From a virus, in IMG/VR virus record IMGVR_UViG_3300044695_000735, positions 1 through 27,669 of that record: DNA of 27,669 nucleotides. One strand, 5' to 3'. The notes under the pieces are model-generated. The model worked only from the letters and a program-made list of their open reading frames with translations. It made no database searches and was not told the DNA's origin. The first letter of the stretch is position 1, and every line of letters starts with the position of its first letter. This document shows positions 14,245-25,397 of this stretch, piece by piece. Both the position numbers and the translations under genes were made by a program.

Positions 14245-14252
14245 CAAAGATA
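14245..14252 (-). promoter_or_regulatory. -7-like box TATCTTTG before the virion operon
   Basis: TATCTTTG on the minus strand fits the Bacteroidota -7 consensus TAnnTTTG. No TTG is found 17-23 bases upstream, so the -33 element is missing or degenerate. The tandem repeats at 14291-14336 lie about 40-85 bases upstream, the position of an activator or phage-factor site. It would transcribe the 25-codon leader and, past the hairpin, the virion genes. Confidence 0.4.
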
Positions 14253-14290: not shown

Positions 14291-14336
14291 ATTTTTAAAC
14301 TTTGTGATGAACGGCAAATAATAAGGATGAACGGTA
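14291..14336. repeat. Regulatory repeat block, copy 2 (two GATGAACGG(C/T) units)
   Basis: GATGAACGGC (14306-14315) and GATGAACGGT (14326-14335) are direct repeats with a 20-base period; on the minus strand they read (A/G)CCGTTCATC. The block also contains ATTTTTAAACTTT (14291-14303), which is identical to 25076-25088 beside the other copy. It lies directly below the TerL stop codon and above a -7-like box, so it is likely a regulator-binding region. Confidence 0.65.
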
Positions 14337-14337
14337 A

Positions 14338-15489
14338 TTATAGAAAGGAATACCTGCCTGACCCCCTTCTAATGCTAAAGTTAGACCACGCTAAAGCCAA
14401 TGACATTACGCAGTCATCGTGGAATCCACTAGGTGCAGAGTACTTAACCCCATTAGCCGTAAACTGATATTCAAACACTTGTAACTCATTTGTAATTGCG
14501 CCTTCAGGGAATCCTATTCTGCCTTGTTGTATAGCAGTTGCAAGACCTTCCATTAGTTGTTGCTTACTTGAACTTGTAAACTTTAAGCCTTCAATAGCTA
14601 TGCCTTCCCTTTGTAAGTCCTCTAGGATAGGGTCACCTACTCCTGTGCTATCTATTAATATAGGGCATCTTGGCAGCCTCTTTATATTCTCCTTAGTGTT
14701 ATGCCAATCCATTTGATACCTGTCAAAGTAAGCCACATTGCCATTATTATCAAGACCTATTATCACCGTATGGTCAACAGACTTTGCAAGGTCAATCCCA
14801 AATGCTACTATTTGTTGACTGCTAATTGGTCTTATACAATCTTGAATGAACTTATTTCCAAATGGGTTTGCGCTATTCTCTGAAGGGTTAGCCATATACT
14901 CCTGCTCAAATACTACATTTGGCAGTTGCATCCTAGCATCATCTATTTCCTGTGGGTCTATAAAAGGATTGTCATAGCTAGTAAATTTAAAGGATGCCCA
15001 ATCAGTTTCACCCTCTTTCATAAACAGGCTATAGAAATAGTTTTTGCCTCTAGGAGTAGATAAGAAAATTGCCTTACCCTTGTAATCTGTAAGGGTTGGT
15101 CTAATACTGTTCTGCCATCCTGCTTCTAAGTCAGGTATAAAGGATGCTTCATCTATAATAACCAAATGGAATTTACGACCTCTAAGGTTATCTAGTCGTT
15201 CACCTGTAAAGAATTCTACCTGCCCACCATTAGGGAAATCTATTTTAAGGTCAGACTTGTTTTTAGGCATTTCTAAGGACTCTGTTAACTTGCTAAAGAA
15301 AACCTTAGCTAATCCATAAGTAGGGGTAATATAAGCCACAGAAAGACCTTTAACGGCATAGGTTACAGAAAGTATCTGAGATAGTTCTGACTTACCAAAT
15401 CTACGACCACACATAACCACCCTAAAACGCTTATCACATTCTAAGATTCTTTGTTGGTTTGCGTGTGGGTTAGGTAGAAATATCTGCAT
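14338..15489 (-). CDS. terL: Terminase large subunit
   Basis: 383 residues, compact for a TerL. The ATPase half has a Walker A (CGRRFGKS, residues 27-34), a Walker B with catalytic acid (LVIIDE, 109-114) and a motif III-like IFLSTP (141-146). The nuclease half has the expected acidic residues: D233 in GIDLAKSVD, D280 in PILIDSTGVGD and D358/D359 in FHDDCVMSLALAW, the RNase H-like two-metal site. It translocates DNA into the procapsid through the portal and cuts it. It starts at the last base of the methyltransferase gene's stop codon region, and the regulatory repeats follow its stop immediately. Confidence 0.95.
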   Translation of the reverse strand: MQIFLPNPHANQQRILECDKRFRVVMCGRRFGKSELSQILSVTYAVKGLSVAYITPTYGLAKVFFSKLTESLEMPKNKSDLKIDFPNGGQVEFFTGERLDNLRGRKFHLVIIDEASFIPDLEAGWQNSIRPTLTDYKGKAIFLSTPRGKNYFYSLFMKEGETDWASFKFTSYDNPFIDPQEIDDARMQLPNVVFEQEYMANPSENSANPFGNKFIQDCIRPISSQQIVAFGIDLAKSVDHTVIIGLDNNGNVAYFDRYQMDWHNTKENIKRLPRCPILIDSTGVGDPILEDLQREGIAIEGLKFTSSSKQQLMEGLATAIQQGRIGFPEGAITNELQVFEYQFTANGVKYSAPSGFHDDCVMSLALAWSNFSIRRGSGRYSFL

Positions 15490-19977: not shown

Positions 19978-20207
19978 ATCTTATAAATTAATGTTTCAGT
20001 AATAGCAGCAAGAAAACCCGAAATGAATATAACACTTGCTATGTTTACAATCAATTCAGGTGCGAAATATAATACAATTCCAATCCACGAAGCCAAGCAA
20101 CTTCCACAACTGAAAGGCTTGAAATTGACTCCCCATTTTCTATGTAGGTTGTGGATAGTATTAAAAAATAATGATGCGCAGACACTTGTTATTATGATTT
20201 GAATCAT
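19968..20207 (-). CDS. Small two-TM membrane protein
   Basis: 79 residues with an N-terminal hydrophobic segment (MIQIIITSVCASLFF), a loop with FSCGSCLASWIGIVLYFAP, and a second long span (LIVNIASVIFISGFLAAI). The CGSCLASW motif with two cysteines is typical of small phage membrane proteins of unknown role. It overlaps the sigma-like gene by 4 bases and the 97-residue gene by 10. It could be a holin, but is not adjacent to the endolysin. Confidence 0.6.
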   Translation of the reverse strand: MIQIIITSVCASLFFNTIHNLHRKWGVNFKPFSCGSCLASWIGIVLYFAPELIVNIASVIFISGFLAAITETLIYKIWN

Positions 20208-20686
20208 TTACGAATAAATTTTTTAAGTTCAGATTTAGTTTGTTTTAAAGTTCTTATGATTGACATATATGGAATACCTGTTTGCCTACTTAATTCCTTT
20301 GCATTCTTGTTAAAGTCAAAAGTATATAGCCTTAATATTTCCTTTTGATACCAATGTAGTTTTTCAATACCCTTCTCCATTACATCTATCACACTATTAC
20401 TTTCTACTTCTGCAACTTCTTTACCATTGTATTCTGTATAATTCCTGTACTTCTTCCAAAATTGACTTCTATCTGACTTAATCATATTAAGCATAGTACG
20501 AACTATGTAAAATCTAATTTCGCCTCTTTCGTGTAAACCAAATAACTTTTCATTAGTCATTTCCAATAAAACCATAAACACTTCAACCTTTAAATCATAT
20601 TGCAATTCTTCAGGTTGCATCTTTGCAAATGCCTGATTGACTTCATCATTAAGCCAATATTGCTCTATAATTTTATTTTTCTCCAT
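20204..20686 (-). CDS. Sigma-70-like transcription factor
   Basis: 160 residues. The N-terminal part (about 30-85) reads like sigma region 2 (DLKVEVFMVLLEMTNEKLFG, then GEIRFYIVRTMLNMIKS), and the C-terminal part (about 108-157) like sigma region 4 with a helix-turn-helix: YQKEILRLYTF, then AKELSRQTGIPYMSIIRTLK. Such small ECF-sized factors recur in Bacteroidota phages. It would bind host core RNA polymerase and direct it to phage promoters or, with region-4 contacts, act as an activator. It sits between replication and virion genes, the usual place for a late switch. Conserved -7-like boxes and repeats before the two operons are candidate targets (inference). Confidence 0.65.
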   Translation of the reverse strand: MEKNKIIEQYWLNDEVNQAFAKMQPEELQYDLKVEVFMVLLEMTNEKLFGLHERGEIRFYIVRTMLNMIKSDRSQFWKKYRNYTEYNGKEVAEVESNSVIDVMEKGIEKLHWYQKEILRLYTFDFNKNAKELSRQTGIPYMSIIRTLKQTKSELKKFIRK

Positions 20687-22548: not shown

Positions 22549-22977
22549 TTATTTTGTAGACAAATATAAAGCATATTTATCCATTTCCTCACAAAGTTGT
22601 TCTATTTTTTCTTTGAACCAATATTCAGTAGACATTATATCCCTACATTTAGTAATAGAATATAATACTGTAGTATGGTCTTTTACACCTATATATGATG
22701 TAATTTCAGATAGACTAAGCCTTGTATACATTCTTAACATATATGCTGCTGCCTGTCTGCCAAATATAGTTTTTTGTTTTCTATTTGGTGCTTTGATATC
22801 TGTACTAAAAACTTCTTCAACTAACTGAACAATCTTTTCAGGCTTAATAGTTTTATCTGTAACAGGCAACCTTATATCATCAAGTATAATACCTTCTTTA
22901 ATTAAAAGATTTTGAAGGTAGTTAAAGCTATCTTTTTGCATTACATACGCAGCATATATTTCTTCTTTATTTGTCAT
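22549..22977 (-). CDS. Stand-alone DnaA domain IV-like DNA-binding protein
   Basis: 142 residues. Residues about 65-125 match the DnaA C-terminal HTH: FGRQAAAYMLRMYTRLSLSE with the basic loop, then ITSYIGVKDHTTVLYSITKC, where DHTTV is the signature of DnaA domain IV that contacts the DnaA box. No AAA+ domain (no Walker motif) is present, so it is a truncated-type phage version that could bind origins or DnaA boxes and replace or block host DnaA. The first 60 residues are a separate helical region. It is directly followed by the structured leader and the DUF4373 replication gene. Confidence 0.8.
   Translation of the reverse strand: MTNKEEIYAAYVMQKDSFNYLQNLLIKEGIILDDIRLPVTDKTIKPEKIVQLVEEVFSTDIKAPNRKQKTIFGRQAAAYMLRMYTRLSLSEITSYIGVKDHTTVLYSITKCRDIMSTEYWFKEKIEQLCEEMDKYALYLSTK
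22561..22594 (-). promoter_or_regulatory. Candidate promoter inside the DnaA-IV-like gene
   Basis: On the minus strand TATATTTG (22568-22561) fits the -7 box TAnnTTTG, and TTG (22594-22592) lies 23 bases upstream, the edge of the allowed 17-23 spacing. It is in the 3' end of the DnaA-IV-like gene. Transcription would start near 22554, giving a leader of about 100 bases that carries both hairpins before the 22453 start. AT-rich background makes chance matches likely. Confidence 0.35.
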
Positions 22978-22979
22978 AA

Positions 22980-23174
22980 TTAAAATGGTAAATCTGTTTT
23001 TTCACTTTTCATTACATAAGTATCTTCATAAATCTGATAGTCAGGATGGGAATTCTTATCTTTGTATTTATTTTCCCACATTGAATATCTTTTACCTTCT
23101 ATTGTAAAATTAATTACAATACCTTTTGTAGTCTCTTTTTTCCAAGCACCATACTTCTTTTTTTCTTCTGACAT
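22980..23174 (-). CDS. Small protein, unknown function
   Basis: 64 residues, MSEEKKKYGAWKKETTKGIV, with a strand-turn-strand IVINFTIEGKRYSMWENKYK region, then an acidic/Tyr-rich end (DYQIYEDTYVMKSEK). It sits between the HTH and DnaA-IV-like genes; its start touches the HTH stop codon. The type is common in small Bacteroidota-phage replication neighbourhoods, without a known function. Confidence 0.55.
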   Translation of the reverse strand: MSEEKKKYGAWKKETTKGIVINFTIEGKRYSMWENKYKDKNSHPDYQIYEDTYVMKSEKTDLPF

Positions 23175-23386
23175 TACTTTTTAGTTTTAATTAATGAATA
23201 TTTTGCTACAAATTTAGGATTATTTTTAGTACCTACGTTTACTCTTTCGGTAATTATATTATGACCTTCGTCTTTAAGATTAAAGACTAATGCTGCTAGT
23301 CTTAATGTACCATACTTTTTTAATGCCACTAATGGAGTAAGCGGTTCTTTTTTAAGGTGATTAAGCACCTGCGTTTGTTGACTCAT
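23174..23386 (-). CDS. Helix-turn-helix protein (HTH_39-like)
   Basis: 70 residues. The N-terminal part (QTQVLNHLKKEPLTPLVALK) with TLRLAALVFNLKDEGHNIIT is the HTH_39-type winged helix found in many phage regulators; the wing follows in VGTKNNPKFVAKYSLI. It likely binds DNA and may regulate the replication operon; its target cannot be seen. It overlaps the previous small gene by 26 bases. Confidence 0.65.
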   Translation of the reverse strand: MSQQTQVLNHLKKEPLTPLVALKKYGTLRLAALVFNLKDEGHNIITERVNVGTKNNPKFVAKYSLIKTKK

Positions 23387-23973: not shown

Positions 23974-24519
23974 TTATTTTATTTGATTTTCTTTAATACT
24001 TTTTAATGCTTTATTATATTGCTCTATGGTAGTATATTGACTGATTCTATTTGCTATTGAATCTTTGGTTGTACTATTATATGTAGTGTTTTCTAATAGC
24101 ACAATTAGTTCCAATCTTTTTTCTTCACCTAGTTCGTCTTTATGCTCATTTGTAGCATCAGAATCTTTAGTATCATCTATAGCAAATAATCCATTAAGTG
24201 CGTACTTTCGTGCGTAACTAGATGCACTACCTGTAATCTGCGCTGCATCCATACCTTTTTTAACTTCTTCTTCTCTTGCCCAACCGCTTACGCTTATGCT
24301 ATCATCTGTGCCATCAAGTAATGTTGCAGTAGCTTTTATGTAGATTCTATCACCTACCTGTACTACTTCATCACTTACTACTAAAGCATTTCCGTATTTA
24401 TTTAAAATAGGCTTTACTGCTTCTACGATGTCTTCTGCACTTCGGTACTTATATTTGCCAAATGCGTTTGTTTGATTTTTAGGTGCTTTTAATTCGGCTT
24501 GAATTTTTACTAAGTTCAT
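23974..24519 (-). CDS. erf: ERF-family single-strand annealing protein
   Basis: 181 residues. The N-terminal core has AFGKYKYRSAEDIVEAVKPI (typical ERF opening) and a KATATLLDGTDDSISVSGW strand region; the conserved GSASSYARKYALNGLFAI motif at 97-114, followed by D115-D116, is the family signature. The C-terminus (about 120-181) is charged and helical. ERF proteins anneal complementary single strands and drive recombination-dependent replication. The nearby DEDD exonuclease could supply single strands. The adjacent small genes form an early recombination block. Confidence 0.85.
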   Translation of the reverse strand: MNLVKIQAELKAPKNQTNAFGKYKYRSAEDIVEAVKPILNKYGNALVVSDEVVQVGDRIYIKATATLLDGTDDSISVSGWAREEEVKKGMDAAQITGSASSYARKYALNGLFAIDDTKDSDATNEHKDELGEEKRLELIVLLENTTYNSTTKDSIANRISQYTTIEQYNKALKSIKENQIK

Positions 24520-24537: not shown

Positions 24538-24813
24538 TTACTCAATTTCTGCCATTTTATTATACTCTATTTCAGCCTGATGCTGCATCCATTGTCCGAA
24601 TGTAAACGCATCATCTTCATAGTCATAACCTGCAAATAAGGTTGGCTTTTTGTTATAGAATTTAAAATAATCATCTACAGATACTAATGTATTATTAACA
24701 TTAATCCTGCCTTTGTATTGCATTTGCCAATAGATAAAGCTATCTAAAGCATCAATAGTTTCTATACCAAATTTGGTACATAGTTCTGTGTAAGTGTGTA
24801 GTTCTTTTTGCAT
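24538..24813 (-). CDS. Small acidic protein, unknown function
   Basis: 91 residues, MQKELHTYTELCTKFGIETI onward, then LDSFIYWQMQYKGRINVNNT and YNKKPTLFAGYDYEDDAFTF; rich in Tyr/Phe and acidic residues, no membrane span. Its start overlaps the last base of the previous gene's stop. It is one of the first genes after the promoter at 25031-25061. No motif recognised. Confidence 0.55.
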   Translation of the reverse strand: MQKELHTYTELCTKFGIETIDALDSFIYWQMQYKGRINVNNTLVSVDDYFKFYNKKPTLFAGYDYEDDAFTFGQWMQHQAEIEYNKMAEIE

Positions 24814-25010
24814 TAGTCAATAGTTTTAGTTTCTAAAATAGTTTTTACAGGTTCTAAGCTGCCGCCATTTGATAAAATAGTAAATTTTTCATAAGCAACT
24901 TCTTTATCAAAGCTACCTGAATCACTTACATAACAATCATTAATAGATGTGTAAAACCAAATGTCACTAGAGTTGATTCTAGTCTGTTGTACGAATTCAA
25001 TTTTTTTCAT
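24813..25010 (-). CDS. Small protein, first gene of the early/recombination operon
   Basis: 65 residues, MKKIEFVQQTRINSSDIWFY, then TSINDCYVSDSGSFDKEVAY, strand-rich and compact. Starts 21 bases below the -7 box of the good promoter, with an AT-rich leader and no Shine-Dalgarno sequence. Unknown function. Confidence 0.6.
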   Translation of the reverse strand: MKKIEFVQQTRINSSDIWFYTSINDCYVSDSGSFDKEVAYEKFTILSNGGSLEPVKTILETKTID

Positions 25011-25030: not shown

Positions 25031-25061
25031 CAAATCTACAGGCTTTAAACATACTATCCAA
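25031..25061 (-). promoter_or_regulatory. Bacteroidota-type promoter TTG-N20-TAGATTTG
   Basis: On the minus strand TTG (25061-25059) is followed after exactly 20 bases by TAGATTTG (25038-25031), matching the -33/-7 consensus TTG-N(17-23)-TAnnTTTG of Bacteroidota housekeeping sigma. It lies in the gap before the 65-residue gene and behind the repeat block at 25076-25121. It drives the recombination/replication operon. Confidence 0.7.
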
Positions 25062-25075
25062 GTATTATGTACTTA

Positions 25076-25121
25076 ATTTTTAAACTTTATGATAAACGGT
25101 AAATGTGAATGATGAACGGTA
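25076..25121. repeat. Regulatory repeat block, copy 1 (GAT(A/G)AACGGT units)
   Basis: GATAAACGGT (25091-25100) and GATGAACGGT (25111-25120) repeat with a 20-base period; the adjoining ATTTTTAAACTTT (25076-25088) is identical to the block at 14291-14303. It lies just below the stop of the HExxH gene and directly above the promoter at 25031-25061, so it is probably a binding site for a phage regulator acting on both operons. Confidence 0.7.
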
Positions 25122-25127
25122 AATTAA

Positions 25128-25397
25128 CTATTTACTGCCATCTTGTAGGGGTAAGTGCTTACTATTGTCTACCTGTCTGTAGCCTAAACTCCATAGCATT
25201 TTAGTAAGAGTAACACTCTTTTCAATGATTTGCTCCTCTGTATCTTCTGCATTAAGCAGGTGGAAAATCTCGTGTATGTATATTTCCAACTTCTTTCTAC
25301 CCTTTAATCTAGGGTCAATATATATAATACCATCACTTTCGGCAATGCCGTGTGCCTGTTCTCTGCCTAGCTTCTTATATACTATTTTTATCTTCAC
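25128..25397 (-). CDS. Small HExxH metallopeptidase-like protein
   Basis: 89 residues. YIHEIFHLLNAEDTEEQIIE contains the zinc-binding HEIFH (HExxH) with a following acidic stretch, as in small phage M78/ImmA-like or SprT-like proteins. The N-terminal half is a strand pair (AESDGIIYIDPRLKGRKKL). A host-target protease or an anti-defence role is possible; the third zinc ligand is unclear, so catalysis is uncertain. It overlaps the next upstream gene by 4 bases. Confidence 0.65.
   Translation of the reverse strand: MKIKIVYKKLGREQAHGIAESDGIIYIDPRLKGRKKLEIYIHEIFHLLNAEDTEEQIIEKSVTLTKMLWSLGYRQVDNSKHLPLQDGSK

Follow-up and report, generated by a model that had tools for sequence, protein, structure and literature searches.

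Lytic development is usually thought to be run by phage-coded switches acting on the host polymerase, and early and late activators such as CII and Q of lambda and MotA and AsiA of T4 are phage-encoded. A response regulator of the host has also been described as controlling phage promoters: the Pho-box promoters of cyanophages (P-SSM2, S-PM2d) are under the host PhoBR system, with host binding shown (PMC10976474). Another type of response-regulator site is the LytTR operator, for which the AlgR core site reads CCGTTCGTC, with the variant CCGTTTGTC (PMC4064291), and the YehT/BtsR site of E. coli reads ACCGCTTA...ACCACTCA (PMC4847170). The AgrA site is centred near -60 (PMC4227749), and in LytTR regulatory systems, including those of Bacteroides, the repeats are found 10-11 bp upstream of the -35 or -33 element (PMC6193735). 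Here we examined a repeated block in an environmental phage, and we put at about two in three the probability that its copies are tandem LytTR-type operators, read at the early and late promoters by a LytTR activator that the host encodes.

In the window (i.e., the whole stretch of DNA analysed, 27,669 nucleotides), the long genes all lie on the minus strand, and two blocks of the form RCCGTTYATC-N10-RCCGTTYATC were found on that strand, one at 25120-25091 (early) and one at 14335-14306 (late) (Table 1). Both read, in order, ACCGTTCATC-N10-(A/G)CCGTT(C/T)ATC, AAAGTTTAAAAAT, and a TAnnTTTG box. The early block, 7 bp behind ORF 25128-25397, precedes the operon that holds the gene for the Erf-like annealing protein; the late one stands directly behind the terminase large subunit gene (TerL) and leads into the virion genes, the distance from stop codon to block start being 5-7 bp at both. 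When searched as GATRAACGGY-N10-GATRAACGGY with up to three mismatches, the window held the early and late blocks only, against a chance expectation of 0.01 in shuffles, none of which held two; the single box alone gave 6 matches in the window at one mismatch versus 2.8 expected, which was not significant. The initial annotation, made from the sequence alone, had placed both blocks at these coordinates, judged a chance origin unlikely for their length and geometry, and pointed out a shared 13-mer, a stop codon just before each block, and a TAnnTTTG box after it. All of this was borne out, and the 13-mer (ATTTTTAAACTTT, at the positions given for AAAGTTTAAAAAT in Table 1) is identical at the two blocks. 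The early AAAGTTTAAAAAT copy may occupy an UP-element-like position.

Table 1. Positions of the paired blocks, promoter elements and neighbouring genes in the window
Feature	Position	Strand	Remark
Putative early operator, promoter-distal LytTR-type half-site ACCGTTCATC	25111..25120	-	
Putative early operator, promoter-proximal half-site ACCGTTTATC	25091..25100	-	period 20
A+T-rich AAAGTTTAAAAAT, between early operator and -33 region	25076..25088	-	same in both blocks
-33 region ACTTGG, early promoter	25058..25063	-	TTG 20 bp before -7 box
-7 box TAGATTTG, early promoter	25031..25038	-	52 bp from block
First gene of early operon	24813..25010	-	followed by Erf-like annealing protein gene, 23974-24519
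Terminase large subunit gene (TerL)	14338..15489	-	
Putative late operator, promoter-distal half-site ACCGTTCATC	14326..14335	-	just behind TerL stop
Putative late operator, promoter-proximal half-site GCCGTTCATC	14306..14315	-	
AAAGTTTAAAAAT, late copy	14291..14303	-	identical to early copy
-33 region, late promoter, TGTACGCAA	14271..14279	-	
-7 box TATCTTTG, late promoter	14245..14252	-	53 bp from block

Conservation of the repeats in related phages, a check named beforehand, was then evaluated and confirmed. A scan of IMG/VR with the exact pattern found at least 118 stretches, and among the matches listed, 109 of 118 share genes and belong to one group of related, uncultured phages, of which the paired block is a hallmark, the rest being mostly singletons without promoter context. 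Five matches (L023, L044, L055, L060, and L063) and a few singletons (L007, L067) were set aside, as they lack promoter context and look like chance matches. Across 50 contigs, a relaxed pattern gave 92 matches versus 0 for the same pattern written backwards, with two to five copies in 28 of the 50, though these site counts are not independent because the phages share ancestry. The anatomy was read from 31 contigs rebuilt from overlapping pieces, several of which carry end repeats of ~125 bases and are probably complete. There, one block follows TerL and another precedes the early operon; some contigs have one more at a third promoter, next to family f22, which leads into an inserted module on the opposite strand. 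The period of good tandems is always 20, never 19, 21 or 22. A block of this type follows the TerL stop in 55 of 76 relatives, and at most late sites it begins 5-8 bp after the stop codon; one contig (G580, of L165) has a single weak block away from the usual place. BLASTN of the block against cultured phages returned only matches with E≥0.9. In four stretches of one lineage (L017, L086, L113, and L119; lineage G009/G038), an inverted half-site-like GAACGGTT or a variant was seen ~15 bp downstream of the tandem block. Separately, contig G047 (of L115) is 63,203 bp long, about twice the usual genome length, and has two TerL-type and two early-type blocks ~31.5 kb apart; it resembles two related genomes joined head to tail and is possibly an assembly product.

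The blocks also keep a fixed relation to the promoter. TAnnTTTG is the sigmaA -7 consensus of flavobacteria, in which the -7 box spans -12 to -5 (PMC9723704), and an exact copy is plausibly placed at 45 of 61 non-redundant sites. Distances from block to TAnnTTTG fall into three classes (31-34, 40-42, and 50-53 bp) and are phased at period 10 with R=0.83, a value reached by 0 of 20,000 uniform draws, so that the tandem is upstream of the -35/-33 element and in phase, centred near -59.5, -68.5 or -79.5 when the -7 box is taken as -12 to -5. Steps of about one helical turn point to a DNA-bound protein that has to face RNA polymerase. For sites of the 50-53 bp class, A+T content is 0.91 over the 15 bp that immediately follow the block, and the alpha subunits of the polymerase could bind there. 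The late -33 element of this phage is degenerate, reading TGTACGCAA versus TGTTTGGAA in most relatives, which would fit dependence on an activator. Overall, the part of the initial annotation that proposed a tandem-bound regulator common to the early and late units is supported by the fixed 20-bp period, the conservation at both operons in relatives, and the helically phased promoter distance; the binders it proposed fared worse (see below).

We next compared the box with known regulator sites. A single base separates the half-site CCGTTYATC from the AlgR core site, read either as CCGTTCGTC or as the variant CCGTTTGTC; some phage copies are exactly CCGTTCGTC, and in other phages the pair consists of two copies of ACCGCTTATC or two of ACCACTCATC, so variants of the AlgR and BtsR sites are in use, often in both half-sites together. 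The geometry (10-bp direct repeats with a 10-bp spacer) falls within the 9-11 bp repeats and 10-13 bp spacers of LytTR operators. The same scan over 257 Gb of chromosomes found only 74 stretches, and 21 of these 74 have a LytTR gene within the locus (≤8 kb), many of them adjacent, compared to about 0.8 expected from the 201 LytTR genes counted in 138 Mb (1.45 per Mb). The LytTR-linked copies come from several phyla, including Bacteroidota (L219, L220, L256, and L271), and the Bacteroidota genomes examined contain 1-21 LytTR genes each. Sequence, geometry, and genomic linkage all identify the motif as a LytTR box. It also occurs in triple arrays with period 20, in a Saprospiraceae MAG (L219, 4328-4377) and at G053:C16:131937-131986, and the former, beside two short LytTR proteins, is a candidate host LytTR target. 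Other chromosomal arrays, of units that contain (A/G)CCGTTYATC, with a 10- or 20-bp period (L204, L242, L244/L261, L260, and L269), look like simple tandem repeats and not operators.

The phages themselves lack a gene for such a regulator. LytTR (PF04397) was detected in 0 of 50 phage contigs at E≤0.01, with control genomes positive, and our own LytTR HMM found nothing better than E 0.59 in 31 phage contigs; many contigs in this sample are fragments, and several are complete by end repeats. Because the phages encode no LytTR, the regulator would most likely be a host-encoded response regulator. Mechanistically, each block would offer two 10-bp half-sites, two turns apart on one helix face, upstream of a Bacteroidota sigmaA-type promoter; an active LytTR-domain regulator would bind the tandem as a dimer and, from that helix face, activate rather than repress transcription by the sigmaA-type RNA polymerase. 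Both operons, the early one for recombination/replication and the late one for the virion, would then be gated by a single host signal. The sole host link comes from one of the 74 chromosomal stretches, L200, a phage contig that was binned with a Chitinophagaceae MAG and has a terminase 87% identical to the one in G010. The main weakness of the host-LytTR interpretation is that the exact tandem, with one mismatch allowed, is rare in Chitinophagaceae (3 of 249) and Saprospiraceae (9 of 248) genomes. LytTR regulators can have very few targets, and such rarity is thus not fatal.

A natural experiment is provided by an operator swap between close relatives. L172 or L186 and L181 have TerL genes of 92-93% nucleotide identity, sigma-like proteins of 98-99% identity, and promoters that hardly differ between the -33 region and the vicinity of the start codon, and the DnaA domain-IV-like protein (DnaA_C) is 100% identical between L172 and L181; for one such pair, the sigma-like and DnaA-like proteins together are 99-100% identical. 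The operators differ, with ACCGCTTATC twice (LytTR-type) in one and TTTAACATTTTTTTAAG in the other. The repeat TTTAAC-N5-TTTAA(G/C) was found in 12 relatives, always 41-42 bp before TAnnTTTG, with 0 in the backwards control. In L166, L167, L173, L175, L178-L181, L185, L154, L158, and L159 it replaces the LytTR block behind TerL. A period of 11 is the shape of PhoB/OmpR-family sites, and by repeat shape this one looks like a PhoB/OmpR-type site; among six Bacteroidota genomes, TTTAAC-N5-TTTAAG gave few sites, and no phosphate genes were recognised alongside. As the phage proteins stay constant while the operator changes, they are unlikely to be its specific readers, and a host factor is the simpler answer. 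We tentatively suggest, at somewhat less than even odds, that two-component signalling of the host is connected to the early and late promoters by exchangeable operator cassettes, LytTR-type in most phages and the PhoB/OmpR-like TTTAAC-N5-TTTAAG repeat in near-identical relatives, while the promoter core is left unchanged. If so, operator swapping would tune phage gene timing to different host signals with the phage regulators unchanged.

The alternative that survives best, though we regard it as unlikely, is that a phage-specific activator reads the block, most plausibly the DnaA domain-IV-like protein of the main lineage (22549-22977) or else an unrecognised protein. Phages carry the motif far more often than chromosomes do, and a phage-coded factor would explain this restriction. 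The protein at 22549-22977 matches PF08299 (4e-14), lacks the ATPase part, and keeps the DHTTV motif, and the DnaA_C family occurs in 26 of 50 contigs, including complete main-lineage genomes. However, the chromosomal motif copies sit beside LytTR genes, and the blocks do not resemble targets of DnaA domain IV, as the window has 2 TTWTNCACA (TTATNCACA-type) DnaA boxes versus 5.1 expected, none of them in the blocks. Further, DnaA_C is identical in L172 and L181 despite their unrelated operators, and none of DnaA_C, the sigma-like protein, and HTH_39 is present in G009, which carries blocks, belongs to another lineage, and by its end repeats is circular and complete. More broadly, no regulator family is common to all block-bearing lineages. 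The block could nonetheless be bound by a phage protein whose fold is new.

The initial annotation had proposed as binders the sigma-like factor (20204-20686) and the HTH_39 protein (23174-23386), and it is very improbable that either reads the block. The former is an unannotated protein of 160 aa with no Pfam or PHROG match and a predicted sigma-factor-like fold (model pLDDT 77, pTM 0.46), similar to that of ECF-type sigma factors, the top Foldseek matches being nearly all sigma factors (lowest E 4e-3). Although it is conserved in the main lineage, it is missing from the G009/G019/G037/G038 lineage and barely changes across the swap, and with the host-type -7 box 31-53 bp downstream, the block is outside sigma contacts; the profile for HTH_39 finds this family in only 10 of 31 contigs. 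DnaA_C, the sigma-like factor, and HTH_39 were therefore rejected as binders on their distribution and the operator swap. Equally improbable is a reading of the repeats as replication-origin iterons and not operators: they are direct, at a DNA-turn period and with a DnaA-like gene nearby, but usually only two to four widely spaced copies occur per genome, each preceding a promoter in the same orientation at a helically phased distance, and no arrays of more than two boxes were seen in phages. Least credible of all is a role at the RNA level, with the repeats serving as a terminator or antitermination element in the 3' end of the preceding transcript, as the stop codon just before the block at most late sites might suggest, since the repeats are direct and not inverted, some copies lie between divergent genes (the third site beside family f22), and the fixed relation, in turn-sized steps, is to the downstream promoter.

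Under the host-LytTR interpretation, the switch point that this large environmental phage group conserves appears to be where a signalling protein of the host lands, and the timing of DNA recombination and virion building could be set by host physiology. The boxes also offer a specific bait for finding the host regulator, and perhaps the host.

Compared to known systems, the phage blocks resemble LytTR operators (AlgR, AgrA, BtsR/YehT, and LytTR regulatory systems) in their paired direct repeats, their CCGTTCGTC/ACCGCTTA/ACCACTCA-type half-sites, and their place upstream of -35. Blocks of the 31-34 bp class are like AgrA in a tandem centre near -60 and like LytTR regulatory systems in lying 8-11 bp before -33, and the 10-bp spacer (period 20) is at the short end of the usual 10-13 bp. 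Unlike known LytTR operators, they are carried on phage genomes without a LytTR gene, where they would drive the early and virion operons, and they also occur one and two turns further upstream. With lambda CII/Q and T4 MotA/AsiA they would share dedicated control of phase-specific phage promoters, whereas those factors are phage-encoded and no phage candidate tracks the block here. In the literature searched, no paper connected LytTR with phage promoters, and we found neither LytTR boxes at core early and late phage promoters nor their exchange for another operator type. Host response regulator control of phage promoters is already known from the cyanophage Pho boxes, and it is the LytTR version and the operator exchange that, as read from sequence, appear new. 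Like the cyanophages, these phages have promoters with putative sites for a host two-component response regulator; but the cyanophage sites are for PhoB (OmpR family) at auxiliary and other genes, whereas here LytTR-type boxes stand at the core early and late promoters, group-wide.
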